NCBI GenBank assembly: GCA_029168955.1
Contig: JAPDOI010000373.1
Location: 310,001-374,000 of the forward strand
DNA from: Aplectana chamaeleonis
Lineage: Eukaryota > Nematoda > Chromadorea > Rhabditida > Cosmocercidae
Length of the DNA: 64,000 bases
Direction of reading: 5' to 3'
The position numbers and the translations under genes were made by a program. Positions 11,291 through 38,700 of this stretch are shown one piece after another. Position 1 is the first letter of the stretch, and each line of letters starts with the position of its first letter. The notes under the pieces are model-generated. The model was not told the origin of the DNA, did not search any database, and was given only the letters and a program-made list of their open reading frames with translations.

Positions 11291-11299
11291 ACTGTTATA

Positions 11300-13394: not shown

Positions 13395-13530
13395 GGAGTC
13401 GTTTATACTTCCGCCACCGAGCGGCGCGGCACAGTGCATTTCTGTATTATTGATCACACGGCGCGGCACGATCGATATCATAGGATCGCACTTCGCCGCG
13501 CCGCTCGGCGGCTGAAGTATAAACGACGCC
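13395..13530. mobile_element. GC-rich palindromic MITE (3-bp TSD TAA)
   Basis: This 136-bp palindrome has ends GGAGTCGTTTATACTTCCG and the reverse complement of GGCGTCGTTTATACTTCAG. TAA lies immediately before and after (13,392-13,394; 13,531-13,533). The inner arms read 'CGAGCGGCGCGGC'. The 3-bp A/T duplication suggests PIF/Harbinger ancestry. Confidence 0.6.
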
Positions 13531-13621
13531 TAATATTGATCACGCAGGTCGGCATGCACCATCAATATGAGAGGACTGTACTTTGCCGCGCAGCTCGGCA
13601 GCGGAAGTAAACGTCGCCTTA

Positions 13622-13757
13622 GGGGTCGTTTATACTCCCGCCGCGGGGCGGCGCTGCACAGTGCAATCCTATGGTATTGATCACGCGGCGCCGCACGATC
13701 GATATTGTAGGAATGCACTTGGCCGCGCCGCTCGGCGGCGGAAGTGTAAACGACTCC
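13622..13757. mobile_element. GC-rich palindromic MITE (3-bp TSD TTA)
   Basis: It is the same family as the copy at 13,395. The ends are GGGGTCGTTTATACTCCCG and, reversed, GGAGTCGTTTACACTTCCG, with TTA on both sides. Half-copies flank it at about 13,213-13,270 and 13,540-13,618, so this is a small MITE cluster. A related but different palindrome (GGGCCGATTAGAGTC…) lies at about 13,273-13,390. Confidence 0.6.
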
Positions 13758-14070
13758 TTACGGGCGTGTCGGTGCATCCTTCAATCGATGCGTAGATTGA
13801 TAAAATAGGATGACACGGTGTCCTCCATCCTCAAATGGATGCGCCGCGCACTTGTGATAGCGGCTTCCTTAGCGTGTGTCTGCGTTTATGGGATAACTTG
13901 CTGATTGCTGGATTAGTTAGTGCTCACCAACGTACTTATATGTAGGCGTGCATAGCTGTGCATGAATGATATAAGTGATTGGGTGAAATCGGAGATTCGA
14001 AAGAAGTCAAGCCCACCCTTTTTTTGCACTGTTTATTATTTGAGCATTAAAATTATTTCTCCATATCCAG

Positions 14071-14123
14071 TTGGATTTCGAGTCATTAAAATACAGCAGT
14101 TGTTTAGTTCGAAGCTGAACGAG
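14071..14123 (+). CDS. Possible upstream exon of the coiled-coil gene
   Basis: A 53-nt open segment sits between a pyrimidine-rich acceptor (ATATCCAG) and a GTACC donor. It enters with 2 nt of a split codon, encodes 17 residues beginning Gly-Phe-Arg-Val and ends in phase 0. That is the phase needed by the better-supported exon at 14555. Only length, splice signals and phase support it. Confidence 0.3.
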
Positions 14124-14554
14124 GTACCAATAGAGTGTTTGAAAGGGTTTTCGATGTCTCTAATGTTCCGTTCTTTGGAACTGTTTATGTCGTGTCACGT
14201 TGGTACATGAAATAAATCAGACATTTGAAACCTAGTGAGTCAAAATTAAAGTCAAGTGGTTTTTTCTAATAATTGTGAGAGGTGGAACTAAATGGTTTCA
14301 TGTGAGATTGGAGCGTGCCCAACAGATCTCCTTTAATGAACCAATTAAGGAAAACTATCATTTATCAGTTTTTGATTTTAATTTTATTCTTATGTCAGCA
14401 GTTCTAATTGCTCGCCACAGAGAACTATGGAATACCCAGCTGTTTGCCGAGAGTGGAAATTTAGACAAGCGGCCAAGTTGGTGCTGATAAAAGTGTCGCA
14501 TCTTTTCTGTACAGCCTTTGTGCTCGTTCTATATATGCATCTAAACAGTTTCAG

Positions 14555-14716
14555 CTGCTTCCAACTAATGTCTCTAAGCAGAGAAACGAGCAACTGAAGT
14601 CAGATCGGACGCACGACATGTCAGTTTGTGAAGAACAGAGGGCAGGCGGCAGAACGGATACGTCGCTCCTTCAAGAGATGAGTCAGAAAATGAAGGAAAC
14701 TACGCTACAGGAAAAG
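14555..14716 (+). CDS. Coiled-coil gene exon 1 (first confident exon)
   Basis: This is 54 codons, phase 0 at both ends. The acceptor is GTTTCAG and the donor GAAAAG|GTAAAC. The peptide is polar, rich in Gln, Lys, Ser and Thr, with no hydrophobic core, and suggests a disordered or early coiled-coil region. The acceptor means at least one 5' exon lies upstream. Confidence 0.6.
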
Positions 14717-17700
14717 GTAAACTGCACGGTTTTTTATTTCCTTCCGAGATTCGCTATACGAAATTCTTGAGATTCTTTTTACTCAGAGAGTGGTTGTACG
14801 AGAATAAATTCAGAGTTTTCACCTGGAAGTAAAGCCGAGCAGGATTGGATAGTTTACTAAAGGGGTGTCATGAGAACATCTGGTAGAAAATGGAAATTTT
14901 GGGAGAGATCGTTAATTTTTTTGTCAAAAAACTAAGGGTCGATAATTTGAAAAAAAACTAAACATAGGTGGTACTGCAGAAACGTTTGTTCAAAAAATTG
15001 GCATGAGGGAAAGCTGTGGAAATGTTTCACAGTAGTGGTAGGATCGTAAGAACTTTCGAAAGAATGTTCTCAGTTGAGGAGATCGTAACTCTGCCAAGGC
15101 TCTAGTCAGCAGGTTGCTGTGACGCGAATGGTCCTATCAAGAATTCCGAAAAATACTTCCAAATTTTTCAGTACAATCCTGTACTTAGATATATTTTGAG
15201 GGCCCTTTCGATTGTAGCGCTCTTCAGCTTGCAGCTGCGTGCATGAAACTTTAGATACATTCTCAGATACGGATAGCCATATTCTGAGTAGTTTCCTAAT
15301 TATTCTTACTCTGATAGTTTTCATACCCGAAACTGCACCTGTGTGCCCTCAGGGCATCAAAAAGGCCCTGCCCATTTGGTGTAGCGTTCTGCGGCTTGCA
15401 CCGGCGTCCATAAAATCCTGGGTACGTTTCCAGGTACGGACTCTCATACGATGGATTTAGTTTTCTTACCCTAAGCTGCACCTCTGTGCCCTCAGGGCAA
15501 CGAAATATGTCCGGTTTCGGGCGAGACCGCCCCTTTAAGTGGCACACTGATGGACGAAATTCAAGAGATATCGCGGTGAACAACGCTCTTCCAAATCAGA
15601 CAATTAATCGTCGTATCCCAATGTTGCACGAATTTAGGCTTCTGGTGGGATCGAGCCTTTGAAACCTAAATCGCTTTTAAGATTCATCTTAGTTCACGAG
15701 TTGTCAGGGCCTGTGGGAGTGAATGACGCTCTTCTTATTGTTATCTTATCATTCCCACAATTATCATCATATACTAACAAGCATGGTCCCAGGGTCAGGC
15801 AGATCGTTGCCCCACACCTTGACGGAGCTACGCCCCCTCCCCCCTTGCTTAACTTTCAACTGATTTTAGATCTACTAAAAGCGTCCCCAATTTTTTCCAT
15901 TTTCTGTCCAACATTTTCACGCCTCCCCACCCCCCCAATATCCCCTTTTTCGTTCACTATTGAAGTGGTAGGTTTTGATCGTCGTATATTGTTGGGATTC
16001 TTATGGTAGAATTTCAGAATTGTGACCATTTCAATACTCCGAACGAAACTGTTGCTCTGTATGAGGACGAGGCGAACGTCAGTAACATTTGACTTTGCTG
16101 AAGTAGACCGCATTTATAAGCCAAATAATGCAACTGTGGTTTAGGTTGAGGAACAACAAACATTGCGAGATGTGGGATCAAGTGTGGGCTGCCATATGGA
16201 TACAACTCAGGTACTAAACATGGGCATTTCGAATTATTGAATATTTCGCCGACGCCGATTAATGAATATTATGAATACCTTATTTTTAGAACTCCTCGAA
16301 TGAATTCATTTTTGAATATGGCCGTTTGAATTAACCGAATGGAAAAAATTTGAATCAGGCATTTCTAGATTTTCTGGATGAATGAATTTTTCGATTAACA
16401 CGTTTAAAAAATTTTCGAATCAATGAACACATTCGAATAAGGCCTCTGAAATTCTTCAAATTATTGAATAAATGAATTTCAAGGTTCAATTCAAATGGAT
16501 TTTCGGAAAATTCGTCTGATTAGTTAAAAAACCTGGATTTTCGAATTATTTTCGATTATTTCATGAAGTATTCGAAAATATTCTAGTGACTGAATATTCG
16601 AATGTTGTGACCGAAAACTGGCAGAATATTCGTGAAATCAAGTTCGCGGGTCTCCAAAAAGTAGTATGAATTCTGAAATGAATCAAATACCCTTAAAAAC
16701 GCAAAACTAGGTTTTTCAAATGAGTAGATTAGTGGAAAATGCGAACTGTTCAGTTTCCCGATTGGATCGAATATTTAAAAGAAATGAAAGTTCAAATACT
16801 TGAATGAATCCCGTATTCGCAAAAATCAGAAATTGAGATTTCCGAATCAATTATTCGAATCATCCGAACATATTTGAACAATTATTCAATTCGTTCCCAA
16901 GTGTATTAGGCACCCATTTGGCAAGAATAAATGGAAGTTGTGCGCCTAAAGAGATTCTGATTTCTACATCTCCAGGATTGAAAGTGTATCTGTAATGTGC
17001 TATCTGCCTTATCGAATTCTTTTCGGTACCCGATTGTAACAAAGTTCATTTGCCGAAAATCGACAGTAAATTTCATTACCGCATTTTAGCTATCTACGTG
17101 AAAACGCAGGAAGCCTCGTCTCAAAACTTTCAGAGTAGTATGCCCAAGTATTGTAGTGTGGACTAAGTATTTTTATTGACGATTGCTCACAGGAACGGAC
17201 TTACATTTGCGCCGCTGAACCACTCGAGACGATAGTTGATGCTTCAATAATGGCTGATTCCATAAGAACTCTGAATCAGACAGTTGAGGTGGTTGGCAGC
17301 TCTGCTAGAGACCTTTTCAGTCTATTTTAGTCTATTGATGGTGTTTAAGATGTCTATGAGTGAGCGAAATAATATGACGAATTTCTCTATCAATGAGTCG
17401 TCAACCGAATTGAATATTACACGAAGGGACATTTCTATCTTGGTATGTTTGATTCGTTATTTGGATTGGAAGCATTTTGGAGCCTTGCATTCCAGCCGAT
17501 AGGGGGCAGGTTCCGGGCGTCCACTTCGTCTCGCGATGATACTGTGCTATCACTCCGCTCACTCCGTGAGGAAACAACCAGTATGAGTCGAAGAATGATG
17601 TTCGATTCGCATGCCCTTCAGGTACAAATTTATTGCTCACTAATCAGATGTGAATCTGAATATGGCTCAAAAGTAAACCTCGAAGGAGTTCTGCTTCGTC

Positions 17701-20700
17701 ATTATAGACCTTAAAGGCAGTGTTCACGATGAATTTCACTTCCGATATCTCCACGGCTTCTGGAAAGTCTGGTTCCCTATATAGCAAGACATGTTCAAAA
17801 AGGACACAAAAGACGCGTTTTTTGAGCAAAAATAGGCCCTCTCTTGTTTACGTAAATTTTTGAGCGTGGAGGAATTGACCGCTAGAAGGATGATGCCTAT
17901 CAGTGCAATGAAGCGATCAGCTCACTTATCAGCACTTCCTTGACTTGATCATTCCTGTAATCTGAGTCTTCATTTGTTCATTCCGAGAGGGCGGATCTGG
18001 GGCACCAAAACGCTTGTTTGCAGCCGTTATTTTGCCAACCCTGGCTCGTTTTCTACCGTTCTTTCGACACTGGGAGCCTAGGATCCTTCTCGCCTATCAT
18101 TTCACTGTGGAAAGTCAACGAGGATGATCATCGTGAACGCTGCCTTTAAAGGCCTCAGAGCTTGTCTGAGGAGCTCGTTAGCACTAAGGGAATCCTTCGG
18201 AAGAGCCTGTGTTTGATCATCCTGAAGCCTGTGAATGTCTTGAGTCATAATTCAGCTTCTGTACCTCACATGTGGTTGACTACAGGCTGTTCTTTCTGAC
18301 TACAATTTTGCTTCGCGCGGATGAATTTGACGTCAAGTTCGATTCCGAACCATTTTTTGGCCTCGAGAACGACAAAACCGTGAATACATCATCATTATTA
18401 TTTCACCTCAACAACATGTGTGACATGGAGGTACACTGCGTATAATAATGGTAACATACACTCCGGAATTGTCGGCTGCGGGCTTATTGAGTTTTAGCCA
18501 ACGTCGCTAAGACCCGTAATTTTATTTGCCTCAAGCCATGTTTTGACTGCACCTGGTCGCTGCGACCATGCGAGGGACAACTGTTCCTTTTCCATCGCGC
18601 GTAATGGAAAGGCGATCCAATTGTGATCGTGGCAAACGTCCTAGATCGCTGGATTGCGGCGACGAAATTCTATGTTTTACTGCTTCGCTGCTGGAGGAGC
18701 ATTCTCGGTGGTCGCTGATCATCGCTCGAGCGATTGCCAGCGAATTACACGTTTCGTCTAGTGAACATTGACTCTTTCACATGACAAGATCAATGTTTAC
18801 GAGTCGAAGCGCGTTATTGATGACTACTAGCCATTAATTTCATTGATTGATCGAATTTCCTTGATTATCCGTGGGGCTATGCACTATGAACAAAATCGCT
18901 GCCGCTCAGGGTAAGGCGTAGCGGTGTGATCGGCCAGTGAGAGGTGCGGCCCCCCCTCCTCCAGCTTTGGATCCGGTGAGGCCCCCCTCCCACCGAGGTT
19001 TTAACTTTAGACACTTGTGCGAACCAATTTGAGAGTCTCTTCCGAACAATGCTTCCAAACCATTTTTCAGGAAAAACGAACGTTATAGATCAAGTCACAC
19101 CGGCCGTAATCGGCTTAAAATGGTCGGATTGTCCGGGGACTCGGCCGACAGTTTTTTTTTGATGGTCCCCGTCGAAATAAACACTGCAACAGCCTAATCC
19201 AGAAAAATTATTTTTTCGACCTCCCGTGACGTGTAAGTCCAAACAGCGGTTTTTTGCTTTTTGAGCGCCCCGAGTGACACACTCATCGTCAACTGCTTGG
19301 CCTCTGGAAGGACTAACCATGTAGTTTCCTCACTTTTCTATCTGATAAAGCTTCGAAAACTGATCTAGAGGCCTTCATCGCAAAAATCACACGGTGTGAT
19401 GAGGCCTGTTTCTAAGGCTCAAATCACACCGGTCATAATCGACTCAAAATGGTTGGATCGACCTGAGACTCGGCCGACAGCTTTTTCTGATGGTCCCCTT
19501 CAAAATAAACACTGCAGCAGCCTAATCCAGAAAAATTATTTTTTCGACCTCCCCTGACGTTTTCCGATCTCTGGTCAGTATCTCGGATTTCGCTGAAATC
19601 TTAACTAGGGGTAATTCAGGGCGCTGATGACAAATCTAGCGTCCGTTTCACAACTTTCGGCCTGCTAATTCAGTTATAAGATGGTTTTTGAAAGACGTAA
19701 TTGATGTCAATTTTTTATATCTCGATTTTACTGTTCGATTCAATGGCGTGCTGCACTCTCTATTGCTGCAAACTTTCCTGCAGCAAGCTTTGCGACAGTC
19801 GTCAGACCGCGAGGATTGGCATACTAGATCTATTAGATGAGGATCCAGGTCAGAATCGATCCCAGTATAACGAAGAAAGCGACATACTCGCCCTTAATTT
19901 TGGAAAGTTCGTAGAATACAGAACCAACAGAGCACGGCAAGGTACAGAGAGGCCCCGCTCCCACGGCGACAGCCAAGGAAGGGTGAAGACTGTCTTCGAC
20001 ACAGCTCACTTTGACTATGACAAGGTGTCCTGTCTTAAAAGAACCATCTACAGATTTTTTGAACGTGCAGAAATGGGTTGAGATTACTTCGCCAGACGAT
20101 GAGATGACACAATTATACAACCCTACAGAGCACAACAAAACCTTGCGTGTTTCCTAGGTCATGAGAAGGAAGGCTCGAAGCGAACCACGTGGGCTGCAAT
20201 AACATCTACTGCCATAGCCTATGCTACACCTAAAAAAGCATTTAATTTCGCCAAAGAATTTCCACTCGTAATTGCACAATGAAGACAGGAACAGTTGCTT
20301 GTGAAGCTAATTACGAAGCGAGAAGAGCCTACAGCTATGATTAAGCAGATCGCTGTTAACATGAAACACGATCTGTTGAAGTAAGTCATCGACGAAAACC
20401 TTCCGATCTCACCTCTAACAGATGATCATGCCGGGAGCGGAATAGAATAGATAACCTTTTTATTGAGAGCTGCATCTCCTGTCAATCGTTCATTAACTAT
20501 TGTGGAAGTTCAGAATAACTTCGCACGTGGCACCTTGCAAGTCTCACGGAAACGCTTAACTTCATTAGATTCCCAGACACAGCAAGCTGGCCTCTCGATG
20601 AGTCTTTGAACATTTTTTATTAAACGTCTTAATTCTCTTCCTTGAAGCAGTTGTGGTGGGGCTTCCGTTATGACCGGTAGGATGCCAGGTATCTACGGAT

Positions 20701-23700
20701 TATTGAAAGAACATATATAACCAGCAACAAAGTTTCGGGACCCACAATAAATGATCTGCTGATGACTGCAGAGCTCACAAATTGACCCTTGTGATCACGA
20801 CGCAGGACGATATGCAATGAACCTCACCCAAATACTTTTTATGAAGGAGTACTTCCTATTTGGTTCACCAACCAGGATTAATAGGAGATTTACCTAGCGA
20901 TCTGTAGCACAGGTAATCAATTTCGGGTTCCCTCAAATGACGATGCTCCACCGTGTCTGATGGGCTGCAAGTTTTCAGTCATGAGTACACAACATTCTCG
21001 CAAGTTGCCTGGTGCTGCTTGTAAGTCTCAGACGGCTGAAACAGGATTTAGATGTCACACCGCAGGGGCGTAAGCAAGAAAATGTCACATAAAGGTAATA
21101 AATGACGCCAGTACATCTATTATTGTGGAACACGTGAACGCAAGCCTCCACCACTTCGCTACATTGTTTGAAACTCTTCCAAACGAAGAGAGCCTTTCAG
21201 TAGATTTCACACTCAATTGCGAAGTCTGAAAAAGAACTGCAGCACCGAGTAAATTTTCTGCAAACGTTTTGTTGCATTTTTTTTGCTAGCACAGGGCGCC
21301 CCATCGCCACAACTCACTTCAAAATTGACCGAATGAGTTTTCAGAAATTTCATGTTCCTCTTAGTGAGGCGAACGCGATGGCTCGTGAAAACTCTTTCTG
21401 ACCCCGGTGTTTCATCGTAATATTTGTATTTCTTTCTGTGATCCCCAATGACCACAGATCGAAACATGTCAGATTTCTCTTATGATGACCGCCTGATCAG
21501 TTCACAATGAGGGATTTTTATGTGGAGACATACATACAATTTTTGATTGATTTCGGGTATTGACTCAGTTATTTCGCACCACTTTTTTTACTCGTTGAAA
21601 GCTGTTCAAAAATGGCATTAAATTGAATTCGTAGGACTCTGATACAAGTTATGGCTATGTGGCGCTATGTGCGCGCGAAATGGCCGCAAATCGCCGGTTT
21701 TGCGAAAAAATCTGCTCGGTACGGTAGGAGGGAAAGGGCCTGCGGCCCCCCCCCCCCCTCTCCCGGCGTCTGAGGCTACAGCCCCCCCCCCTTCTCTGTG
21801 ATCGTCACACCGTACGCCTGAGCCTGCTGCCGCTGCGAGATCGCTGCAGCAGCGGGTGCAAAATCGCTGCGATGAAAAACAGCAGCGATGCAGTCAAAAC
21901 TAGGCTTCACGGACCCTAACAGGCTGCTCCACCGAGGGTATCTAGTCAACTGTCGTCAGAGTATGTATAGCGTGCAAGTGGCGCAGGTGCGGTACCTCAT
22001 CGCTCTGAGTGAATTGAAGTCGAATAGACTAGAGTGTGACACAGGTTTCACGGACTGTCAGGGTGTTGAACTGCAATTTGATTATATTTATACAGGTTAA
22101 CTACGTTAATCACGCAGACGATCAGCCGCAGAGCAACTTGATCAGGAACGAAATTTTGTCGGAGTTGAACAAAAATATTGCTGAAATGCACGAAACGTGA
22201 GATTTATGGTTTATTTACTGTATATCGATAGGACCCTAGTAAAATTATAGAATTACATATGAATAAATTTGTTTGTTTGTTAAGGTCGACACAGAATTGT
22301 TTTTTCTAGCTCGATGTACAGTCTGGGGCGAAACAATGGTAGCGAGATTATAGCCTTGTGAAAAAGTGATGAGAGCTACTAGCTTAGAATGAGGGGTCAG
22401 GTCATAAAGGGTCCTATATCTTGTGATCATCTATCATGCCATAAAAAGGCGTATAAATTTCTAAAAAAACTTCAAAAAATTTTTTTTTCAAGGCCTCAAC
22501 CTAACTTGCTTCAATGCTGATATGTGCTTACCTGATCATACCCGTTATCGTGTGATTCCTGTTGTGCCTACACGGTTCATGTGTGAATAGCTGAGGAATG
22601 TAGGGAGGGTGTCGGTGGTGTAATGCCCGGAAAGCGCGTAATGCAGGTTCAGTGTGAAATATTAGAAACGAGCACCTGAAATCTTCAGAAAACGCTTCTG
22701 GACATTTGCTTGTACACACCCAGCGTGTACACCCACGCCGCTTCGCGGCGTACATGTGGGCGCGTTCGTCGCCCTCGGCTATGCAGATGGTCCCTCTTTG
22801 AAAGCATTCATATGAATCATTATCAGTTCACGATTAGAGGCATGAATAACGAAAGGGAGCGCATGATGCTTTCAAGAGAATGTGATCATTGCGCTCACAT
22901 TGAGTTACCGTAATTTCGCTCACCATGTATTTTCCCGCGGTCCGCGCTCTATGTGATTATGTTTCGGTCGAAATTCGCCGAACTGACGAACAATTCGGTA
23001 TCGACTGTGTTGTATTGTTATTCCATGTTTGAGTTTTCGATCGGCTACTGAATGTTTTATTATTGCAGTTCTGAAGCCGGAATCAATTCACTTCTCTCCC
23101 AACTGCGATCTCTTCATCCTGCGAAAGCCAACGCTGTGATGAATAACGACACAAGAGCTGTATCTAACCTTGTTTCTTTTGCAGTTTGACTCTGTTCTCT
23201 GTTTGAAAATGTTGCATGTTGTAGCTGAGTTTGGACGACGAGGATGTTGTTTTCTGCAGTCGTAAAGAAGCTGTAATCGAATGGGCTGAAAGGAGAGCGA
23301 AGGTTGCGCAAGAAGCTCGGGCATCAGTTGAGGTGATTTACAGATTCTCAGATTCTCGAATTGATTTTGGAATTAATCTGCTTACGTACAGAAGTCCCAC
23401 AGTCAGAGAAAAACTAGCATGCTATAGGAGGACATTGTGGCGTGTACATATGCAGCTACATGTTGTTAATCTGTTTTACATAGGCCATACGTACTCCAAT
23501 GCGACTGAAACCAATATTGGCCTCAGAAGCGGTATGGCTGGTAGATTTTGGCGCTTGATATACGAACCACGGCCCCGTCCTGAGAGGTCTCCTGAGTTTA
23601 AGTCGCGGCGCTGTACACAGCGACGAACGGCGCTGGATGATGCAATATCGATTACGTTTGGCGACGGGAGCGACCGCGACTGTAGTTCTCGAAAACATGC

Positions 23701-26700
23701 TTGTCGCCGGCGACGAGGATTGGAACCAATCCATTTGAAAATCCGAGATTTACGGCAACGGGTAAGACACCTTAATTACCGTCCCTTATTACACAAGAAT
23801 GCCCATAAATGATCAGCTGAGAGTTGTTGAGGGCAGCATCTGCGCAGAAAACCGCATTAGGTTCTGTTCTTCTTAAAGGCAGTGTTCACGATAAATTTTA
23901 CTTCCGATATCTCCACGGCTTACGGAAGGTCTGGTGCCCTATATAGCAAGGCATGCTTAACAAGGGCACGAAAGACGCGTTTTTGAGCAAAAATAGGCCC
24001 TCCCTTGTTTACGTTGATTTTTGAGCGTGGAGGAATTGACCGCTAGAAGGATGATACCTATCAGTGCATTGAAGCGATCAGCTGACTTATCAGCACTTCA
24101 TTGACTTGATCATTCCTGTTCATTTGTTCATTCCGAGGGGGCGAATCTGGGGCACCAGGCGTGTCTGGGGCACCAAAACGCTTGTTTGCAGCCGTTATTT
24201 TGCCGCTCCTGGCTCGTTTTCTACCGTTCTTTCGACGTTGGGAGCCTAGGATCCTTCTCGCCTATCATTTCACTGTGGAAAATCAACGAGGATGATCATC
24301 GTGAACGCTGCCTTTAATCCCGTGTTTGACCAAAGTCGAGGTGGTTGACAAAGCTTGAAGCTTCATGGTTGCGTATCCATAAAATAGCAGCCCCGGCAAA
24401 CTTGTTCGGTGATTCAATGGGTGTTTCCTTCTTCGATCATCTAGCGCGAGGAAGAGAAGCGCCTCGACAGGCGCAAGGGATCTGTGTTGATTGTCCTACA
24501 GATTGAAAGATCCTAACAGTCGAGACCACTTATTGGAAGTTTCTTGTTCTTATAGGATTTTTGGCAATAGAAAGGTAAAAAGAATTCACGCGATTATGAA
24601 GTTTAGGGATCAAAACTATCCCGGACGTTCAAATTGCCGTCGTATTCGTATTACACCAAATATACTAGGTGAGACGTAACGAGCCGATCAGAGTCCTGCC
24701 GCTGGAATTTGCGGCGACATGCAATGGAGCTGTATCGATCATGCGGCGGCACCGATTGATTCTCCTTCATTATATGCGCTCTGACTTCGTTGTCTTGGTT
24801 TTCCTCTGGAAACGTCATTGCAGACAAAAATTAGACGAAAAGTTTGTTCTCGGTTATTTCAAGTTTTCTTGTTTCCACAAATCCAGGCATGGCTAGGGGC
24901 CCATGCAGACTGCTGCTCCGGATCAGTGAGGTAGGGCCTATTCTCAATTTTTGAGATTGAGTTGTTGGTCTCAGGGAAAAACGGCTTTGGTGACTTGAAG
25001 GCAGGCGCGGTACAAACCGGCTTATTTGGTGGTCCGAGTGTTAATTATAAGTGGACTGCGGGCCCAATATATAATTCAAAAGTCTCAATCGGGAGGGGAA
25101 GTGTGGTGCAAATTTTCAATTCATGCAGCAAAACTTTAAAATGGTAGATTGGCAGTGCTTCGACAAAAAAAGGCTGCTTAGTGAAACTTATTCCGTGGAG
25201 GCAAATGGTGTCAAGTCTTGGTACGCGGTGCCTGATTGTATGCTGCGGCTGGTCCGCAGATGTGTACAACTTACATATGATGGGAGCCTCATAGTCTTAA
25301 CAGAACACGCGCTTTGATTGCGAGTTAGCATGCCTACGTATCTGAAGGGTTATAGTGACGGCCGAGCGACGCCGAGCGTCAGCCCTTGTGCAGGCGACAA
25401 AAATGTTTCGATCCTTATTTGGCCTTACGTTGCTCGTCACTCGCTGACCCCAACGCGGCGTTGAAACAGGGGAGATTCAGCGCCATCGGTCCGACCGGCG
25501 TTGCTGTCTGTCCCCGAGACAAAAACAGACGACAGCGGTTTGGCAGAATACAACTAGAAGTGTGAAAACACTGCGAGGGTGGCCGGTCTCGCCCAATGAG
25601 ACTGATATTGCATCCCCGAACGCTGCAGAGGATTATAAGTTACCACAACGACCAAATACCCGGTCGAAAAGTGGAAGGTTATAACCTATCTACCCTATTT
25701 TGACCTATATTTACAAATATGGGTATTTGCCCCTGACGAAAACCTATAGGATGCGTGTGACTATGGCCTTCAATACCTTCTGCGATACACCGATTGTATT
25801 GAGAAAACCTTATTCCAAGCTTCCAACAGGTTCTACCAGGTTGAGAAACAATAATCCTTGGTATAGCTCGCTAATTTACAAATATGGGTATTTGCCCGTG
25901 ACGAAAATTTATCAACTTGTGCTGCACGCCGCTGTGAATATGAGGCAGGGAGAAGGTACTGAGGGGTAACCGCTTCTTTGCATTGATCGTTTGGAAAGAA
26001 GCATTGTTCATGAGTGGTCGTAGTCATGAGCCGGCAGGGAGGGTTCAAAGTCTGCCCGCCGCATACATCGGGTGGTTCTAGAATTCTTCGCTGGAGGCTC
26101 CGGCAGTTTCAGGAATACGGCCACAAAACCGCTGCCGGAGAGGTTGTGATATAGCGGATTGCGATAGAGTGCCGGTTGTTATCTAAGACAATGCAGTATC
26201 GTGTCTCCACTGTTTGATTATGTGTCAAACTATGTAGTTTTGTTTCTGCATGATAGTTGGTTGCAGGTTTTGGCACGAGGTGTGGACAAGGCTAAATTTT
26301 CTCAGACCCCCCCCCTCTAAAAGCAAACTTGGCGATTTTCTCAGACCCACTCCCAAAAGCGTTAATAGGTCGAATTTTTGGCGATTTTCTCGGGCCCCCT
26401 CCCAAAAGTGTTCATTGTCTGTTTTAGTAGCAAAATTGTAATAAAAGGAACAACTTATTCCACAAAAGATGTATAATTTAAAGAAGAACAACCATTTAAA
26501 AAAAACAAGACATTAACAGATAGATAGATCACGGACGAGGCTTTTCTTTACGGATTACATGAATTTGCCTGCGTTTAGGAAAACGTAGCTAAAGTAAGGG
26601 TTTTGATTATAGTGAAGGCTCTCCTGATGTTGAATATAAGACACATAGGTTTGAAAGTGTATCCAGAAATTGTTAATGATTCCGGGTTGGAAGCTAAGAT

Positions 26701-29700
26701 ATATTCTGTAAAAAAGGGGTCTCCCAAGCAAAAGTGGTTTGGTTCGCGTTAAAAACGTTTTAACAAAAAGGGAACAATAGGAAAGTGGAATGAGGAGAGT
26801 GTACAAAAAATGAACAATATTCTCTAAAAACTCTTTTATTGGCGAAACTTCTAAACAGCGGAAACAAACCGTTGCGGTTCTGTATGAGGAAGCGATATAT
26901 ACATATTTTATCGGCACTCACATAATCAAAGTCCTTTATGGAGCCAAAAGCGCGTCCTCATAGAGAACCGCAACGGTTTGTTTCCGCTGTTTAGAAGTTT
27001 CGCCAATAAAAGAGTTTTTAGAGAATATTGTTCATTTTTTGTACACTCTCCTCATTCCACTTTCCTATTGTTCCCTTTTTGTTAAAACGTTTTTAACGCG
27101 AACCAAACCACTTTTGCTTGGGAGACCCCTTTTTTACAGAATTGTTCACTTTTTCTTGATATTACGCAGTAATATCCCATGCAAGAATTTCGAACAAAAA
27201 CCTCTTCATCTCCCCGTTAGATCAGTCCTCTTTCTGTGGTCACAAGAATCAATGACCCAAACTGTTATAAAACTATCTCAGAAAAATCACCCGATGTAGC
27301 TGACAAGATCGATGTTCACATGATAATATTAGCTAAGAAATGAATGATATCCATGATATCGTTCCACATAATTCATTCATATTGATCGCGTCAGCCACAG
27401 CTGGCTACACCGGGTGTTATTTGCTACCTTCATGTTTTTCATACGTATCGAACGGGTCGGCCACGGTGATTTTCTCAACCAACTCTGACAGGGGTCTTAG
27501 GCCCCGGTGATAGTTGGTCGCTCAGACGTAGCCAGCCCGGTCGATAATCATGAAAGCCTGCTGGCCTACAGCCGGATGCAGAATCTGCCTACAGTTCTTC
27601 GCTTTCAAATGAAACTACATAACTCAAAACCTGCACAGTCAGAAACTACCTTCCATTCCATTCGGACACTTTCACATTAGTGGAACAAAGCAGTTTTCTA
27701 TACTCATTATTTCGTTTCCTCCGCCCCATTCCTTCACAGAACAGCCGATTCGATTCCATGAATTTGATATGAAAAAGCTCTGCTGAGCTGCGAATGGAGA
27801 TAGCTATCAACTTGTTTTTGGATTTAGATGCTGATAAGCAAGTACCATTTATTGCAGAAAAAACCAGTAGGCTGGTGAAGAAGAATGAGGGAACACTCAA
27901 AATGGGGTTGTGTGAATAGCCTAAGCGCGTTACGAAACTGAAAAGCAGCCTGGCGACATGACCTATGATCTAGTTCCGCAATCGCGTTCAGTCCGCAAAG
28001 TCTCATTATCATAATCGTAGAAGCGTAGCGGTTGTTTTGAGAATGATTCTAGTTGATTTTTTCGAAAACAACCGCTTCGCTTCCACGAATGTGATCATGA
28101 GGACTGAACGCGATTGCGGAACTGAACTAAACATACTATCTCAAGCTTTCTGCACGCTATGCTTGTCATCAGCACACTTTAAAAAAAGTTTTGCAAGGTG
28201 TTCTTGGACTCCTTCGCAAATTCCGATGCATCTAGCACATCTCAGACGACTAGCGCAAAGCTCAAGACTCTTGCTCATTCTTTTGGGTAACCTGCACAAT
28301 TTTCCGGATGACCAGCAACGGGTCCCGAGCACCTGCCCACTCTCCGGGTTTCCACGACGTCCCGATGACGTCAGCAGAAGCTCGAAGCACTTTTCACGAC
28401 GTCCCGATGACGTCATCAGAAGCCCGAAGTACTTTTCACGACGTCCTGATGACGTCATCAGGAGCCCGAAGCACTTTTGGGACTATCAGAGACGGGGGGG
28501 GGGCACCCACGATTCGCTCATGAAAGTTAATGGAAATCCTGATAAAAGATGTTTGATGCTGCTATCAATCATTGTTGTTGATGAAGTTCTGTAGAAATCT
28601 TCGATTGATAGAGTTACAGATCGGTCGTTCATTTCATTTCTGACTTGAATCTTGAGTGCCCCCCCCCGTCTAGTATAGTCCCGCACTTTTCAGGACGTCC
28701 CGATGGCGTCATCAAAAGCCCGAAGCACTTTTCCCGATGTCCCGATGACGTCATCAGGAGCCCGAAGCACTTTTCACGACGTCCCGATGACGTCATCAGA
28801 AGCCCGAAGCACTTTTCACGACGTCACGATGACGTCATCAGGAGCCCGAAGCACTTCTGACGACGTCCTGATGACGTCACCAGGAGCCCGAAGCACTTTT
28901 CACGATGTCCCGATGACGTCATCAGAAGCCCGAAGCACTTCTGACGACGTCCTGATGACGTCACCAGGAGCCCGAAGCACTTTTCACGATGTCCCGATGA
29001 CGTCATCAGAAGCCCGAAGCACTTTTCGCGATGTCCCGATGACGTCATCAGAAGCCCGAAGCACTTTTCACGACGTCCTGATAACGTCGTCAGAAGCCCG
29101 GAGCACTTTTCACGACGTCCCGATGACGTCATCAGAATCCCGAAGCATTTTTCACGACGTCCCGATGACGTCATCAGAAGCCCGAAGCACTTTTCACGAC
29201 GTCCTATTGACGTCATCAAAAGCCCGAAGCACTTTTTACGATGCCCCGATGACGTCACCAGAAGCCCGAAGCACTTTTCGCGATGTCCCGATGACGTCAT
29301 CAGAAGCCCGAAGCACTTTTCACGACGTCACGATGACGTCATCAGGAGCCCGAAGCACTTCTGACGACGTCCTGATGACGTCACCAGGAGCCCGAAGCAC
29401 TTTTCACGATGTCCCGATGACGTCATCAGAAGCCCGAAGCGCTTTTCACGACGTCCTGATGACGTCATCAGAAGCCCGAAGCACTTTTTACGATGCCCCG
29501 ATGACGTCATCAGAAGCCCGAAGCACTTTTCGCGATGTCCCGATGACGTCATCAGAAGCCCGAAGCACTTTTCGCGATGTCCAGATGACGTCATCAGAAT
29601 CCCGAAACATTTTTCACGATGCCCGATGACGTCATCAGAAGCGCGAACCACTTTTCGCGATGTCCCGATGACGTCATCAGAAGCCCGAAGCACTTTTCAC

Positions 29701-32700
29701 GACGTCCTATTGACGTCATCAAAAGCCCGAAGCACTTTTTACGATGCCCCGATGACGTCACCAGAAGCCCGAAGCACTTTTCGCGATGTCCCGATGACGT
29801 CATCAGAAGCCCGAAGCATTTTTCACGACGTCCCGATGACGTCATCAGAATCCCGAAGCACTTTTTACGATGCCCCGATGACGTCATCAGAATCCCGAAG
29901 CATTTTTCACGATCTCCCGATGACGTCATCAGGAGCCCGAAGCACTTTTCGCGATGTCCCGATGACGTCATCAGAATCCCGAAGCATTTTTCACGATCTC
30001 CCGATGACGTCATCAGGAGCCCGAAGCACTTTTCACGATGTCCCGATGACGTCATCAGAATCCCGAAGCATTTTTCACGACGTCCCGATGACGTCATCAG
30101 AAGCCCGAAGCACTTTTCACGACGTCCTGTTGACGTCATCAGAAGCCCGAAGCACTTTTTACGATGCCCCGATGACGTCATCAGAATCCCGAAGCATTTT
30201 TCACGATCTCCCGATGACGTCATCAGGAGCCCGAAGCACTTTTCACGATGTCCCGATGACGTCATCATAAGCCCGAAGCATTTTTCACGACGTCCCGATG
30301 ACGTCATCAGAAGCCCGAAGCACTTTTCACGACGTCCTGTTGATGTCATCAGAAGCCCGAAGCACTTTTTACGATGCCCCGATGACGTTATCAGAATCCC
30401 GAAGCATTTTTCACGATCTCGCGATGACGTCATCAGGAGCCCGAAGCACTTTTCGCGATGTCCCGATGACGTCATCAGAATCCCGAAGCATTTTTCACGA
30501 TCTCACGATGACGTCATCAGGAGCCCGAAGCACTTTTCACGATGTCCCGATGACGTCATCATAAGCCCGAAGCATTTTTCACGACGTCCAGATGACGTCA
30601 TCAGGATACCGAAGCATTTTTCACGATGTCCAGGTGACGTCATCAGAATTCGGAAGCACTTTTCACGATGTCCAGATGACGTCATCAGAATTCGGAAGCA
30701 CTTTTCACGATGTCCAGATAACGTCATCAGAATCCCGAAGTATTTTTCACGATGTCCCGATGACGTCATCAGGAGCCCGGAGCACTTTTGATGACGTCCT
30801 GATCAGAAGCCCGAGGCACTTTTCACGACGTCCCGATGACGTCATCAGAAGCCCGAAGCACTTTTCACGACGTCACGATGACGTCATCAGGAGCCCAAAG
30901 CACTTCTGAAGACGTCCTGATGACGTCATCAGAAGCCCGAAGCACGTTTCACAATGTCCCGGTGACGTCATAAGAATCCCCACTGACCTACAAATCGATT
31001 ACCCACCAGCAAACGTTTCCCTACCAACTTACCTGTCTGCCAAGTTGATTGCCTGCAACCATTGGCAGTGGCTATTAGCAGTGAGGACTGAAAAGCGTGA
31101 CGGCCTACGGCCCACGGCCTACGGCGCACACCATGAAATTTTCTTAAGCTTTCGGGCTCACAACTTTGTTATTTGTGAACCGATTTTGTTGAAATTCGGA
31201 CAGCAGGTGTATTCTGGACCCCTTCGCTTATATCCAGAAGGAAATATTCAGAAATTTTGTTTCAAAGATTCTATAAACTATTTTATAAAATTCTAAGTGA
31301 TCACAAGGCCTAGGCAAAACCAACCTCTCCAGCCGCTTCGCGGCTGGAGCTATATGTGGTGGAAGAGAAGCGTGGAGAAGATGAAGTGATTGGCTAATAT
31401 CAAGATTACGGGATGTCTCGAAGAAATAAATGTGTTTTCACATTAATATGAGTTCGTAAATTCATTTCGCAAGTCCAGAAAGAAAATGTCACTTAAGATG
31501 TATGGACTTCTAGTTCGAAAGAGCGTCATCCGATCTGGTTACGTTGCGAATTTTATTTTCCGAAGCCCACTCATACACGAAACACACGACACGGGTTCGA
31601 TCCCGCAAGGTGCTTAATTTTCGGAAAACATTAGACCTCACATTTTTCTGCAAAGTAGGGGTCACGAAAGTAAGATGTTCGAGTCGAGAGTGGTAGATTT
31701 ACCCTATATACAAATTTTCAGCCTTTAAGATGGACGCTGAAAGGCACTTCTCTGTGTGGCCCACACCTGCCGCAGGTGCGGCCGGTGTGGGCCACACAGA
31801 GGAATTCTACATTTTTGCAAAGTATGAGTCAGGAGAATACGATTATCGAGTCGAGCGTGGTTGATTCACCCCATATACAAATTTTAGCGGCATCATAGGA
31901 ACGCCGAAGACCGCTACACTGCATGGGCTCACACTGATCTCAAATGTGGTCCCTCTGGAAGTCGGCAATTTTAAAATTTAGGTGTCACGAGAGTAGGATA
32001 TTTGAGTCCAGCGTAGCCGACTTATACTAAATACTCACTTTCACCGTCCAACATGGATGTTGAACACCGCTACAGTGTAAGTCCTCACACTTTGCTCAGG
32101 TGTGGTCCCTCCGAATAGGGGCATTTTTGAAATTAAGTTGTCACGAGAGTAGGATATTTGAGTCCACCGTGGTCGATTTACTCTTTCTACAAACTTCTAC
32201 CGTCTCAGGTAACGCCGAAGACCGCTACATAGACAGCGGAACACGGTAAAAAAATGCAAAAAAAAACGTCGACAGCTGTAACTTAAGTTCCAAATGAGCT
32301 ACCCGGGGTTTGAGCACAACTAAGAAATTACATTTGTAACCCTACGGAACGAAACCTTATCCGCTCCCAGAGGACGCCTTACAAAAAAGTTTACTAGATG
32401 TGGACTTTTGATGTTTTGTGCATAAAAGTCCACACCTAGCCAGCGGATTTAGGTGTGAACTTTTGTGCCCAAAACATCAAAAGTCCAAAATTCTAAAATC
32501 AATACGAGAATCTGAGAATCTGTAAATCACCTCAACTGATGCCCGAGCTTCCTGCGCAACCTTCGCTCTCCTTTCACCCCATTCGATTACAGCTGGTTTA
32601 CGACTGCAGAAAACAAAACCCAGGGTAGCTCATTTGGAACTTGAGTTACAGCTGTTTTCAAACCCTACTTCAGGTTTGTGCGCTTTTACGTTTTTTACCT

Positions 32701-35700
32701 TGTTCCGCCCTCTGTGTAGCGGTCTTCGGTATTACACTGAGACGGTGTAAGATGGCACCCAGGGTAAATCGACCACACTGGACTTGAATATCCCACTCTC
32801 GTGGCTCCTAGTTTTCAAAATTGCCGACTTCCATCGGGACCACACTTGAGAAAAATGTGAGCCCACGCAGTGTAGCGGTCTTCGGCGTTCCTATGATGCC
32901 GCTAAAGTTTGTATATGAGGTAAATCAACCACGCTGGACTCGAATATCGTATTCTCCTGGCACAATCCTTGCGAAAATGTAGACTTCCAGCGTGACCGCA
33001 CCTGCGACAGGTGTGGGCCACGCAGAGAAGTGTCTTTCAGCGTCCATCTTAGAAGCTGAAAGTTTGTATATAGGGCAAATCTACCACTCTCGACTCGACT
33101 ATCCTACTTCCGTGACCCTTCTTTTGCAAAAAAGGTGATATCTGACGTCTTGCAAAAAGTTAAGCACCTTGCGGGTTCGAACCCGCGTCGTGTGTTTCGT
33201 GTATGAGTGGGTTTCGGAGAACGAAATTCGAAACGTAACCAGATTTAATGACGCTCTTTCCAATTAGCAAGTGTTTGTGCCATGTCTGGTCTGGCCAAAG
33301 CTCAAACACCCATTGTTGTATCTAGCCACTTATAAGTGCGTGTTTTCCATACATTTAAGGTGACCTGTTCTTCTCTGAAAACATATTTATTTCTTCAGTA
33401 CATCTCGTCGTCTTCGCCTTTGCCAATAACTTCATTCATCGCATCCACTCTTTTCTTCTGCCCCATTCCGTAGCTTCCAATCTGTTCTTATTTGCAATTC
33501 AGTACACAACTATCCAGGATACACACCCAGAACCTAAGGTTATGTGCCTTAAATTCAACCGTAGGAGAACCTTTACTATAATTCTAACATTTACCTAAAT
33601 TTAATTTCAACAAGTTTTCATGTAAATTGTGCGGTATTACCGAATTATTCGCAAAAAATATTTCTAAACAGTGTACCTACTACCCCCGGTCAGAATGATT
33701 CACGTGGTTTCCCGGTGGAGCTCAGACCACCCCTCCCTCCACCATTGCGCAGCTCAGACCCCCTGGTGTCGATATCCACACCCCGCGCTGAACCCTGGTT
33801 GGTTGAGGTAAACTTCGACCTCACGAATGCGTGGACTGGTGTCCAGAATTTTATTGCAGTGGGTTTTTTTTTGAAACGATCTATTTTCTTTCAGAAGTTG
33901 ATTGCAAACGATGAGCCTATACTGAAACAACTGTATGAAGATGCACAGCTGTGTTGCAGCGTTGCTGAACTTAAGAAAGGTGCATAGTCTCTAACTATAC
34001 ATATTGGATAAGACGATATCTGGCTGTACCAAACCGAGGGACGGACGCGCCGGACGCGTTCAAGCTAGGGCACGCGATGTTACAAAGGTCATGTGTGATC
34101 CGACCCCTCTCCTCCCCATTATAAAGCTCATACCGATCATTTTGATGTCGGGCTACCGTAACCATTCTTGAACAAGACATGATAACGAACGATAACACAC
34201 GCTCATAACATGCGGGGTTTTAAAAGGCAGAGGAGCGGTATGCATTCATTCACACACCGCTCTAATTGAGAAGCCACTGGGGAGTGGCTGAGGTGGTCGA
34301 AATCGTGCAAACGTGTTTGTTTCCTGGTACGATGTGCTCATATTCAAGGTGACACTTGGAAATTTTTCGACAAGGGGTTACTGTAGCCCTTCGTCCACTG
34401 ATCGGCATGAGCGTGCTTGTCTCCTCCCCCTTCCTTACAAGGGAAGGTCGCTTGGAGAAAGCGGCAGTTTCGAACAAAATGCAACTTTATAGAATCTATT
34501 TCCAAAAGTTCAGCTTCCTGGCAAAAGTAATGATTTGGCAATGTTGTAACTACGGGAAATATAGAAGTTGACAGAATACAATAAAAAAACAACTCGAAAT
34601 ATGTTTGAAAATGATTTGGCACAAAATAACTAGAAGTAATGAAAAACTGGGAAATGTAGTGAAATGACCAAAACCGGATTTGCCGGTCATTCATAGGCCA
34701 ACTTTTGATAAGTAGTGACTGACGAGGGATTAAATTTTACAAGATTCTCCGTTAAACTTATCAAAGCGAAATCAAGCGCGCATCGGATTTGAGCGTTACG
34801 TTCACATAGCTTGACCTATGCTGATTTCCGTATTACAGCTTCAATGAAATGTTTTACGGTTTCCGTTGGGCGCTTGATTTAGCTTTGATAAGTTTAACGG
34901 AGAATCTTGTAAAATTTAATCCCTCGTCAGTCACTACTTATCAAAAGTTGGCCTATGAATGACCGCCGAATCCGGATTTGGTCATTTCACTACATTTCCC
35001 AGTTTTTCATTACTTCTAGTTATTTTGTGCCAAATCATTTTCAAACATATTTCGAGTTGTTTTTTATAAATTGTATTTGGTCAACTTCTATATTTCAGTT
35101 ATAGTTATAACATTGCCAAATCATTACTTTTGCCAGGAAGCTAAACTTTTGGAAATTTCATATATTTTTTCCAAAGGTGTGGACACGCGGTCTCTAAGGT
35201 GTAAAACCCATTGCGGCATCCCGTTAAGCGCGGGGCTACGGACGGCTTTGGAGGGACTACTTTGAACCAGGGATGAGCGGAATTCCCACTTCCGATGTCC
35301 GATTTCCGCAGGTTTTAGGCCTTGGAATTCCGTTTTCCGATTGCCGAAAAATGGGTGCCGAAATCGGAACAAAATGCGGAAATAATTTTGATCTGCATAC
35401 ACTGACAGAAGTTAACAAGTTGAGACTCGTCAACTTCTTTCAAGGTTTGTTATAGGCAGTTGTAACGATAAAATCGTATTCTGGTTTTTTGTGTTTCTGA
35501 GCAGGCAAGTATACAAAGTAAAAACTAATAGGGGAAACCTCAAACCTACTCTTGGATATCGAAGAAAAAACTGCTTAATGAAATCTTTGAAATGGTGTGT
35601 TCCGGAGAACTGCGGGCTTTGAACAATCCAGACGTCGAAAATGGTTTTGCGCATTAAAATTCTTGACCAGTTTACTTTGTTTCACGTTTCTTGTAGCAAA

Positions 35701-38700
35701 CACTCCCCGAAAATAATATGGTTTAATGCACAAGATCGGATGCTAGAATCTTTTGGGATAAAATTCAGAATTTCGGCAATTGTTCCTCTGGAAAGACGAA
35801 CGGTGGACAACCTTATATGACGTGGGAGGGGCAATCTAAGGGATCTGCTGGTCCACGGGATTTTCACCCTTCTGGCCGTTTTTCGTAGAACTTTCATCCT
35901 TGCTCTTCTTTGAGGGACCCAAAGCTTACGTTCCTGCTGAAAAGCGGACAAAATTTTCATCGTGAACGCTGCTTTTAATGCAACTCAATTTCTATGGGAT
36001 CCAGGAATGTGCCTAATTGAAATTTTATAATTAGTTAGACGTTAGTCGTTCAAAGAGCCAAAGCCCTTCTTAGTCGTTAATCCTTAGCCGTCATGAATCT
36101 AGACTTTGACAATAAGCACTGCGAATGCCGAGAATATCCTTCAAGGGTAAGGCCGGTATCATACAGTTTACAGCAATGATTAAAAAGACATGGCGCGGTT
36201 GCTGTCACACACTAAAACTACGGTGGAAAGCCTGGCTTCTTATCAAATTCCATTATCGATCGACAGCACAGCCGATTTTCTGGGTGAGTTGCGGTTTTTC
36301 TGGGTGGGTGGTTTTTTTTCTTGTTTGTTTCGGCATTATTTTTGTTTCTGACAGTTTAAAGGCAGTGGTCGCGCTCAAATATGCTCGTCTTCTTTTCCTC
36401 TCTGAACCCTTTTCTGGGTATAGAGTAGTAGAACCTATAAGAAAAAATCGCGAAAAAAACGCTGTTCTAGGCCAAATTTGTAGCCAGAACTTTCTTGTCT
36501 TTTGATGGTGTCACCCCACATCTTTGGCATCGATGATCTCTAATATCGAGAACATCAGCTGGCTTGAAATTGAATTTCAATCAATGAAACTTCGGATTTA
36601 TGTACACATCTAGTCAAAAACATTGGTTGAAGTGCTTGCTCTCATTGTTCAACTGATTTATTAGAGAAATTTGCATTTATTTCTTCCTCTGAGTGTCGAT
36701 GATTTTCGACTGCTTGGCATGAGACTGTGATCTTTCTGTGCATGTGTACACGAACTGGAAGTTCAGGGTCTTAATAACTCTACTTCTAGCCCGTTTTTCA
36801 CCGCGCTACATTCATAGTTTTTGAGCTGTTTTTGATCTGAGCTGATTTCTGTAGTTTTTTCTTTAACGTTTTTCATAGTGACCACTGTCTTTAAATATTG
36901 CGATTAGGGACTGTTCATAGTGTGCGAGGGTAATTAGCCGTTTGTTCGGGCTACAAAGTGTCTTTTCTTTCAAAATTTCGTTTTGAAATCGAAAAAGACG
37001 GCAAAGTCCCCTCGCACACTAAGAAAAGCCCCTATTTGTAGTATTTTACGAGTCAGAGACAAAAATGAAGTAGAAACAAACAAGAAAAAAAGAAAAACCG
37101 TGACTCACCCAGATAATTAGTTGTGCTGTCGATTGATAATGAAATCTGACAGATACAAGTTTTCCACCGTAGTTTTAGTGTGTGACCGCAACCGCACCAT
37201 GTCCTTTTAACATTGCGGTAAACTATAGAACTGTTCTCTGGAAATAGCATTCTAGGATATAATGTCCAGAATATATTTCTGAACAATCTTCTTTGATTTC
37301 TTGAATACGTCTGGTTAACAATGTGTATATAGAATGCTCACAGAATAGTCCTGTGGCTTGGACTTCAAAGTCATGGTTTTGAATCGAGAACGGGTTGAGG
37401 GTTTTTTCCAACTGTACAATTTCTCAGGGACCATCAGAATTCTCGGGGGCTCTTTGCGACAAAACCTAAATTTCACTCTCTCAGGGGTGTAACGCTTTTG
37501 TTTAGCACCGAAGCGACGCCGCGCCCGCAGCGTGACGTTATCTTGGTTCCAAAATATTTATATCCTAGGTTTAGAAGCCGCTTTGTTAGAAACTGTAATC
37601 ACTCTAGGGTATGAATATTCTGTACGACAAACGTATGTACAGTTTGCACGGATCGCACTGATACTTTGCGTTCCCCATTGGAGGTTGGCGCAAACTCGGT
37701 GCATGTAGGTTATAAGACGTGGTACCGAGTTTGGGCCAACCGTCAGTTGTGAACGCAAAGTATCAGACGATCAGTGCCGACTGTGCATATCCCGAACAAC
37801 TACCAGCGATATATAGGCCAAAGTTGGTGTGATCCCTCCTTTTTGGTAGCGATAATAGTGAGCAATCATTTTTTAAATTCTGGATTGCTTATGGAAATTT
37901 TTCATTTCTTTAGTCGTTTGTCGTTCGACGTAACACTGAAAAAAGCCCGGTAGTCCTTGAAGCTCTTACAAGAGAAGTGTTTAGAGTGGTAAACGTATCT
38001 GCGAAAACGACCAGTATCGTTAGTATCTCTTGTGGCTCAATAGGAAAGATGCGCAGTATCCCGCCCCGAGCTTGACTGGGTGTTAGAGAAGTGCCTGTGC
38101 CCCCATGCCAGTTGCCTGCAATCCCGGGTGTCAATAAGGCGCGCCGCGGCCAGCGCGCTTGGTGCCAGCTGCACGCCAAGTGTACATAACATATACCACG
38201 GTTGCAAAGTGACGCAAGATACAGTGCGTCGCATAAGTATACGAACACCGCGAAATTTCATGGTTGGACCAATCGAATGACGTTTCAAGCATCGGCACCG
38301 GTTTCTATGTTTTCCGCTATGCCGAAAACGGTAGGTCACATTGTAGGAAGGCAAATCGTACACTTTTTCCTTTTTTACATACAGAAATTCATTTTTGAGA
38401 AATTCGTCGCATAAGTATACAAACACTTGGGAAATTCATAAATTTATCGAATAATTCCAAACAATACATAGTCTTCAGTATGATCTTACATCACCGTACG
38501 CGAAATAAGTTCAAACAGTCTATCTGTCATGCTATCACTGAGGTTCTGGAGGGTCCCTTAGTCAATTTCGTTCCATGCGTCCACGATGGCCTCCTTGAGT
38601 GGCTCCACAGTTCCGCATTGCCTCCCATCCTTGTAGATCTTGCGAACAATGATTCCCCTAAGGTTATCGATAGGATTCAGATCCGGCTGATCGCTGGCCA

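Follow-up and report, generated by a model that had tools for sequence, protein, structure and literature searches.

The window, by which we mean the whole 64-kb stretch of DNA analysed, contains a predicted plus-strand gene whose intron 7 houses a foldback element, and the loop of this foldback carries an antisense copy of part of predicted exon 7 and its splice donor (Table 1). Given predicted exon 8, intron 7 spans 23,333-33,894 (10,562 nt). Exon 7 is a prediction based on its open frame and weak splice sites, and an alternative acceptor at 23,260 scores -0.4, near the -0.6 of the acceptor at 23,225. A crude exon predictor, whose splice-site weights and amino-acid composition are approximations, placed exon 5 alone of the four among its 60 best candidates, and exons 6, 7 and 8 each have one splice site under its cut-off. 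Since the predictor missed three of the four exons and also ranked candidates within the foldback arms, it neither backs nor excludes exon 7. The four joined exons matched no Pfam family and nothing convincing in PDB (three weak matches, best E 0.59), and searches for their homologues in a protein collection, with 8 and then 234 candidates, left none that passed. Plus-strand three-frame scans of 13,501-23,402 and 33,801-43,702 found no Pfam family at E 0.1.

Table 1. Predicted exons, copy and source, and parts of the foldback (positions in the window)
Feature	Position	Strand	Basis or remark
Predicted exon 5 (VNYVNHADDQPQ...IAEMHE)	22096..22196	+	Open frame from acceptor to GT donor; among 60 best predictor candidates
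Predicted exon 6	23069..23159	+	Open frame in phase with exons 5 and 7; donor -2.0; outside top 60
Predicted exon 7, 108 bp, phase 0	23225..23332	+	Donor GAG/gtgatt 4.3; acceptor -0.6; outside top 60
Copy source (86 bp of predicted exon 7, donor, 42 bp of intron 7)	23247..23374	+	Self-BLAST, pairwise count
Outer degraded inverted repeat, left	31345..31440	+	Alignment score 44; best of 300 shuffles 25
Left outer arm	31506..32024	+	Self-BLAST; 70/502 ungapped differences from right arm
Tandem repeat in left arm, 156-bp unit, 1.9 copies	31906..32204	+	
Left inner arm	32272..32311	+	38/40 bp shared with right inner arm
Left slot, 89 bp, without inverted partner on right	32312..32400	+	No other window match at E 0.05
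Small palindrome	32401..32487	.	Taken as original foldback centre; 1 base (32,488) before copy
Antisense copy, 128 bp, 6 substitutions	32489..32616	-	Self-BLAST, pairwise count; inner end +/- ~8 bp
Right inner arm	32616..32655	-	1 base in common with copy end (T at 32,616, copy sense)
Right outer arm	32765..33272	-	Self-BLAST, pairwise count
Outer degraded inverted repeat, right	33376..33479	-	Pairs with left one; score 44 vs shuffle best 25
Predicted exon 8	33895..33979	+	Acceptor 4.4, donor 1.0; outside top 60

The element is 1,767 bp long and degenerate, with the copy in its loop, in agreement with the foldback of about 1.75 kb noted in the preliminary description. Its outer arms match at 84% by BLAST, the inner arms differ at 2 of 40 positions and the halves of the small palindrome at 3 of 38. 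Outside the outer arms, degraded traces of the palindrome seem to extend to about 31,345 on the left and 33,479 on the right. The small palindrome and the right inner arm enclose a slot that the copy fills; the corresponding slot on the left holds 89 bp of other sequence, or 5.0% of the element length, with breakpoints at 0.56 and 0.63 of that length. The copy runs from 32,616, the base at which the arms cease to be symmetrical, to 32,489, a single base short of the palindrome. Its junctions are near-blunt, with 0-1 bp of clear overlap. We infer that the small palindrome is the old foldback centre, and its independent insertion is possible. For the loops of two other foldbacks, no second copies were found in the window at E 0.05. 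Patterns made from the foldback arm (viral and bacterial/archaeal contigs) and from the exon (viral contigs) gave no exact matches, results that are uninformative on copy number since these collections are unlikely to include this organism. A tRNA scan of 30,900-34,000 was negative, as was an Rfam scan of the whole window at the gathering threshold.

Self-BLAST of the window aligned the source with the copy over 128 bp at 95.3% identity (E 1.3e-52), which rules out chance similarity. Aligning the segments and counting differences, the check proposed in the preliminary description, gave 122 identical positions, six substitutions (two transitions and four transversions) and no indels. The inverted copy that it had placed at 32,490-32,616, with a GT donor and about 40 bp of intron, is therefore real. 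Of the 108 bp assigned to predicted exon 7, the copied stretch takes in 86, and it continues through the donor into 42 bp of intron 7; the exon so named keeps the status of a prediction with a weak acceptor. Substitutions number four in the 86 bp of predicted exon and two in the 42 bp of predicted intron; those in the exon change E to P (two bases in one codon) and A to G in the copy, one is silent, and none creates a stop. Because the copy runs across the predicted donor, the template was DNA or unspliced RNA, and an mRNA-derived copy is ruled out by the predicted intron sequence that it contains. Second copies of exons 5, 6 and 8 were not found in the window at E 0.05. Source and copy lie 9,114 bp apart.

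Palindromes are hard to assemble, and a mis-joined inverted fragment could in principle appear as such a copy. We consider this highly improbable, since a mis-joined fragment should show about 100% identity to its source; the six substitutions are scattered, the arms are degenerate and the ends of the copy fit the anatomy of the element.

The arrangement resembles the single-copy Pack-TIRs of animals, in which DNA foreign to an inverted-repeat element lies inside it, and we compared it with the definitions given in the methods of PMC8277862. There, captured sequence lies between TIRs with an internal length of 100-5,000 bp; here, with 31,506-32,311 and 32,616-33,272 taken as the arms, the 128-bp copy lies in a 304-bp loop. 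Identity to the parent is to be at least 90% with a score of about 100 or more, and 122 of 128 positions agree, as measured by BLAST and pairwise count rather than BLAT. The copy alone has 100% of the length of its parent, and the whole 304-bp loop, which includes the palindrome and the 89-bp slot, lies outside the 80-120% range. The parent should be free of elements within 100 bp and the copy should not be intronless; the 42 bp of predicted intron are retained, and the nearest repeat downstream of the source begins at 23,872 by self-comparison of the window, which would miss elements that have no second copy there. Further likenesses are the 95% identity, the retained intron and the scarcity of microhomology. 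Unlike in the published cases, the filling sequence runs antisense to the gene it came from and sits in the very intron whose donor was copied, and the element here carries no family name.

Our preferred reading, to which we give a probability of roughly 60%, is that a single-copy Pack-TIR arose here without transposition, when a gap was filled from a template 9.1 kb away. A foldback DNA element would already have been resident in intron 7. Palindromes are fragile at the centre, and a break or a stalled fork close to this point would have cost the element a small inner part of its right arm. Repair of the gap would then have used 128 bp of nearby DNA as template, copied in antisense orientation and by chance covering most of predicted exon 7, its donor and 42 bp of intron, and the ends would have been joined with 0-1 bp of clear overlap. 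The original symmetry of the element, the order of events and the repair pathway are inferred.

Published data agree with this reading on several points. Tan et al. (2021) concluded that most animal single-copy Pack-TIRs arise by filling gaps from nearby DNA, and found 160 of 281 unique Pack-TIRs in 100 animal genomes to be no more than 15 kb from their parent (PMC8277862). In the same survey the gap has a median of 4.6% of the element and breakpoints favour the interior, which matches the interior breakpoints and the small gap of 5.0% estimated here from the left slot. In the human gene H2BC15 an intronic piece was copied into the gene's own 3' UTR (PMC8277862). The preliminary description called it unusual for a gene fragment to be captured and re-inserted, antisense, in an intron of the gene it came from; given this cis bias, capture from the surrounding gene is instead to be expected. 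Counting against gap filling, 9.1 kb exceeds most of the close cases, the majority of which lie less than 5 kb from the parent (PMC8277862), and clear microhomology at the junctions amounts to 1 bp at most.

The relative ages of copy and element are suggested by their divergence. Between copy and source 6 of 128 positions are different, compared with 70 of 502 between the two outer arms; the contrast (Fisher P 0.0035) suggests that the foldback is the older of the two. The argument is weak, since the inner arms and the palindrome halves have diverged about as little as the copy, the exon is possibly constrained, and the arms need not have matched at insertion.

The position of the copy within an inverted-repeat element would also suit capture that depended on transposition, in which the exon piece was gained during replication or excision and the resulting Pack-type element landed in intron 7 of its parent. 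Multicopy Pack-TIRs do exist, with four cases (1.4%) in the animal survey, but those of frog and alligator are distal (PMC8277862) and the parent here is 9.1 kb away. Insertion into the parent's own intron would be an extra coincidence, and capture elsewhere followed by re-insertion is less economical. A TA is present at each foldback end, where it is symmetric within the inverted repeat, so that no clear target-site duplication can be separated from the repeat ends. We regard this origin as quite unlikely. Unlikely too, in our estimate, is a source in another member of a small family, such as a paralogue or a dispersed fragment, which would make the self-antisense relation accidental. With 4.7% divergence a closer source could exist, and exon 7 has no outside support; against this, intron (2/42) and exon (4/86) have diverged about equally throughout, and the candidate source adjoins the intron that houses the copy, in keeping with the cis bias on record.

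The locus can also be set beside other systems. Class 2 templated sequence insertions in human (TSIPs, PMC5110952) share the end-joining-style junctions of a break-repair patch and the lack of a clear target-site duplication; their patches come from distant regions, possibly via RNA, whereas here the source is local and the host a foldback. In the C. elegans germline, polymerase-theta inserts are documented at transposon breaks, and there too repair copies nearby sequence (PMC4490562); those inserts match sequence close to the break, in contrast to the 128 bp drawn here from 9.1 kb away. The Drosophila FB element Ssk-FB4, described in PMC8277862, is likewise an inverted-repeat element whose arms are repetitive and which acquired sequence from a host gene, but it took nearly a whole gene and occurs at several loci. 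The likeness to FB is one of architecture and capture.

The preliminary description had proposed that exon 7 and the copy could pair within one primary transcript, and this is physically possible: the predicted duplex between 23,225-23,400 and 32,470-32,640 has an energy of -232.7 kcal/mol, compared with -42.6 and -22.1 kcal/mol for the separate folds. After the cost of opening the loop (32,272-32,655) and the structure of the source, the predicted net gain is about -125 kcal/mol. Predicted exon 8 begins 1,279 nt downstream of the copy, which resides in the very intron that starts with the matching donor and would therefore be transcribed before that intron is removed. Every full-length pre-mRNA could pair exon 7 with the copy, and masking of the exon-7 donor by the duplex is energetically possible. 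Exon 7 in its predicted form has 108 bp, so its skipping would keep the frame. A repair patch might in this way have become a natural self-antisense switch, in which the pre-mRNA hides exon 7 and pairing leads to regulated in-frame skipping, to editing, or to small RNAs and endogenous RNAi directed at the gene itself. We judge such a working device very unlikely. Three of the four exon differences alter the protein, as for unconstrained DNA; the foldback forms a strong structure of its own (MFE -1070.5 kcal/mol), with 65 of the 128 copy bases paired inside the loop region; and exon and copy are 9 kb apart. Most likely, the copy has no function today.

The event itself is most likely of a known kind, a small repair patch with its template in nearby DNA. 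To our knowledge no antisense copy of an exon and its donor has been described in the adjoining intron, and fixed-phrase searches of titles and abstract openings in the open-access literature returned none. The locus offers a clean example of local DNA apparently patching a palindromic element in a nematode. It also provides a natural test case for the disturbance of splicing, or the triggering of editing or RNAi, by a long-range intramolecular duplex of this strength. If RNA data revealed exon-7 skipping or antisense small RNAs, a single repair event would be able to impose self-antisense control on a gene; if RNA effects were absent, duplexes of such strength would be tolerated.

A self-comparison of the window matched the exon 7 region to intron 7 of the predicted gene at one place only. 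The source (23,247-23,374, plus strand) and its counterpart (32,616-32,489, minus strand) are identical at 122 of 128 bp with no gaps (E 1.3e-52), and the antisense copy in intron 7 is a real feature. The preliminary description had reported an inverted copy of exon 7 with its GT donor and some intron in the loop of a foldback, and the alignment bears this out, including the placement, since the copy sits between the inner arms of this inverted-repeat element. Two transitions and four transversions account for the mismatches; the predicted exon portion (86 bp) has four of the six and the predicted intron portion (42 bp) two, and the GT donor is present in the copy. The exon differences would change E to P (two bases) and A to G, and one affected codon is silent.

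Features of the foldback, the predicted exons 5 to 8 and further foldbacks in the window
Feature	Position	Strand	Remarks
Foldback outer arms	31,506-32,024 and 33,272-32,765	+/-	70/502 ungapped positions differ, 3 gap blocks
Foldback inner arms	32,272-32,311 and 32,655-32,616	+/-	2/40 positions differ
Outside inverted pair	31,345-31,440 and 33,376-33,479	+/-	weaker; score 44 vs best 25 in 300 shuffles
Left slot	32,312-32,400	+	89 bp, partnerless
Small palindrome	32,401-32,487		87 bp
Predicted exon 5	22,096-22,196	+	joinable in phase by frame and splice sites
Predicted exon 6	23,069-23,159	+	joinable in phase by frame and splice sites; donor weak (-2.0)
Predicted exon 7	23,225-23,332	+	joinable in phase by frame and splice sites; acceptor weak (-0.6)
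Predicted exon 8	33,895-33,979	+	joinable in phase by frame and splice sites; donor 1.0
Further foldback	11,294-12,894		arms differ at 114/748 aligned positions
Further foldback	26,703-27,142		arms differ at 2/192 aligned positions
Further foldback	34,498-35,156		arms differ at 14/290 aligned positions

Between the inner arms, the order from left to right is the 89-bp slot, the 87-bp palindrome and the exon copy. The copy starts at the very base where arm symmetry ceases, and its other end lies one base off the small palindrome. At the right junction a single T is common to copy and arm; no overlap is clear at the palindrome-side junction, which can be placed only to within about 8 bp, given that the last bases of the copy (TTTTAGAATT) are also similar to the left arm at this point. 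A 156-bp repeat (1.9 copies) was found in the left arm of the foldback. Given the outside inverted pair, the element would be either larger and decayed or inserted within an older palindrome.

Exon 7 is a reasonable prediction from frame and splice signals, though one without outside support, since a crude exon predictor missed it and no family or homologue was found for the predicted exons in Pfam, PDB or a protein collection. Among exons 5 to 8, the 60 best candidates of the predictor included exon 5 alone, owing to the weak exon 6 donor, the weak exon 7 acceptor and the exon 8 donor, which falls just below the cut-off. Both exon 7 acceptors are weak (23,225, -0.6; 23,260, -0.4; approximate weights), and the phase of the latter disagrees with exon 6 as drawn. 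If the exon starts at 23,225, its first 22 bp are missing from the copy; if it starts at 23,260, the copy contains it in full. The copying event is independent of whether exon 7 is a true exon, so the predictor result leaves the odds for gap filling, a repair of the foldback using nearby DNA, unaffected. The predictor also returned a possible coiled-coil-like exon (ELHLRLELARRANRELREENAMFEHK...) at 47,184-47,343 on the plus strand.

The copy ends 1,279 nt upstream of predicted exon 8, within the 10,562-nt intron 7, and therefore every full pre-mRNA of the predicted gene would carry both strands. For pairing of 23,225-23,400 with 32,470-32,640 the predicted energy is -232.7 kcal/mol, against -42.6 and -22.1 kcal/mol for the separate parts; allowing for the loop's own structure (32,272-32,655) leaves a net gain of about -125 kcal/mol. 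In the predicted loop fold 65 of the 128 copy bases are paired and 63 unpaired, and self-folding of the foldback is predicted to be strong (-1070.5). Skipping of exon 7, which has 108 bp in the prediction, would preserve the frame. On these models, pairing between exon 7 and its copy and in-frame skipping are possibilities rather than signs of actual use. A function of the antisense copy is unlikely.

Several other repeats occur in the window. Upstream of the foldback, intron 7 contains a minisatellite with a 42-bp unit (28,349-28,478, 3.1 copies; 28,683-30,980, 54.9 copies). Another repeat, dispersed and some 445 bp long, is present in three copies of 73-89% identity (17,710-18,149, 23,872-24,317 and 39,909-40,351), the second lying 498 bp downstream of the source. 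Non-LTR retrotransposon pieces (5,313-9,219), in which endonuclease-reverse transcriptase and reverse transcriptase domains lie at 5,976-9,219, have an inverted 1.7-kb copy (92%) at the opposite end of the window (61,851-63,752). Tc3 is a C. elegans element, relatives of which may exist elsewhere. An open frame at 41,655-42,086 (minus strand) matches the Tc3 transposase (solved structure 1u78, E 2e-22) as well as Pfam Tc3 families, which makes a nematode the probable source of the DNA. The loops of the foldbacks at 11,294-12,894 and 34,498-35,156 had no other match in the window at E 0.05.

If the small palindrome marks the original centre of the foldback, the element would formerly have been symmetric, and the 128-bp copy would have taken the place of the right-hand counterpart to the 89-bp slot. 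The presumed replaced slot amounts to 5.0% of the element, and the breakpoints fall at 0.56 and 0.63 of the element length. The lower divergence between copy and source (6/128) than between the outer arms (70/502; Fisher P 0.0035) suggests that the patch is younger than the foldback. This age argument is weakened because the inner arms (2/40) and the palindrome halves (3/38) have diverged about as little and because the exon may be under constraint. A foldback followed by a patch is the likely order of events, and gap filling is the likely mechanism.

The present copy resembles in kind the Pack-TIRs, TIR elements with captured sequence, of which Tan et al. (2021, PMC8277862) report 370 from 100 animal genomes; they also mention four cases in the worm reference genome. 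They conclude that single-copy Pack-TIRs arise mostly by transposition-independent gap filling; the gap has a median of 4.6% of the element, with breakpoints biased to the interior, and microhomology (median 2 bp) at one or both breakpoints is reported for 190 of 281 unique Pack-TIRs (PMC8277862). Capture from the surrounding gene had been expected to be unusual, but in the same survey the parent lies at most 15 kb away in 160 of the 281, mostly within 5 kb, and in human H2BC15 an intronic piece was copied into the gene's own 3' UTR (PMC8277862). Templated inserts at C. elegans transposon breaks have been ascribed to polymerase-theta end joining (PMC4490562), and the junction style of the present copy is common to human class 2 templated insertions (PMC5110952). 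By analogy with these cases, the exon copy belongs to an already known kind of event.
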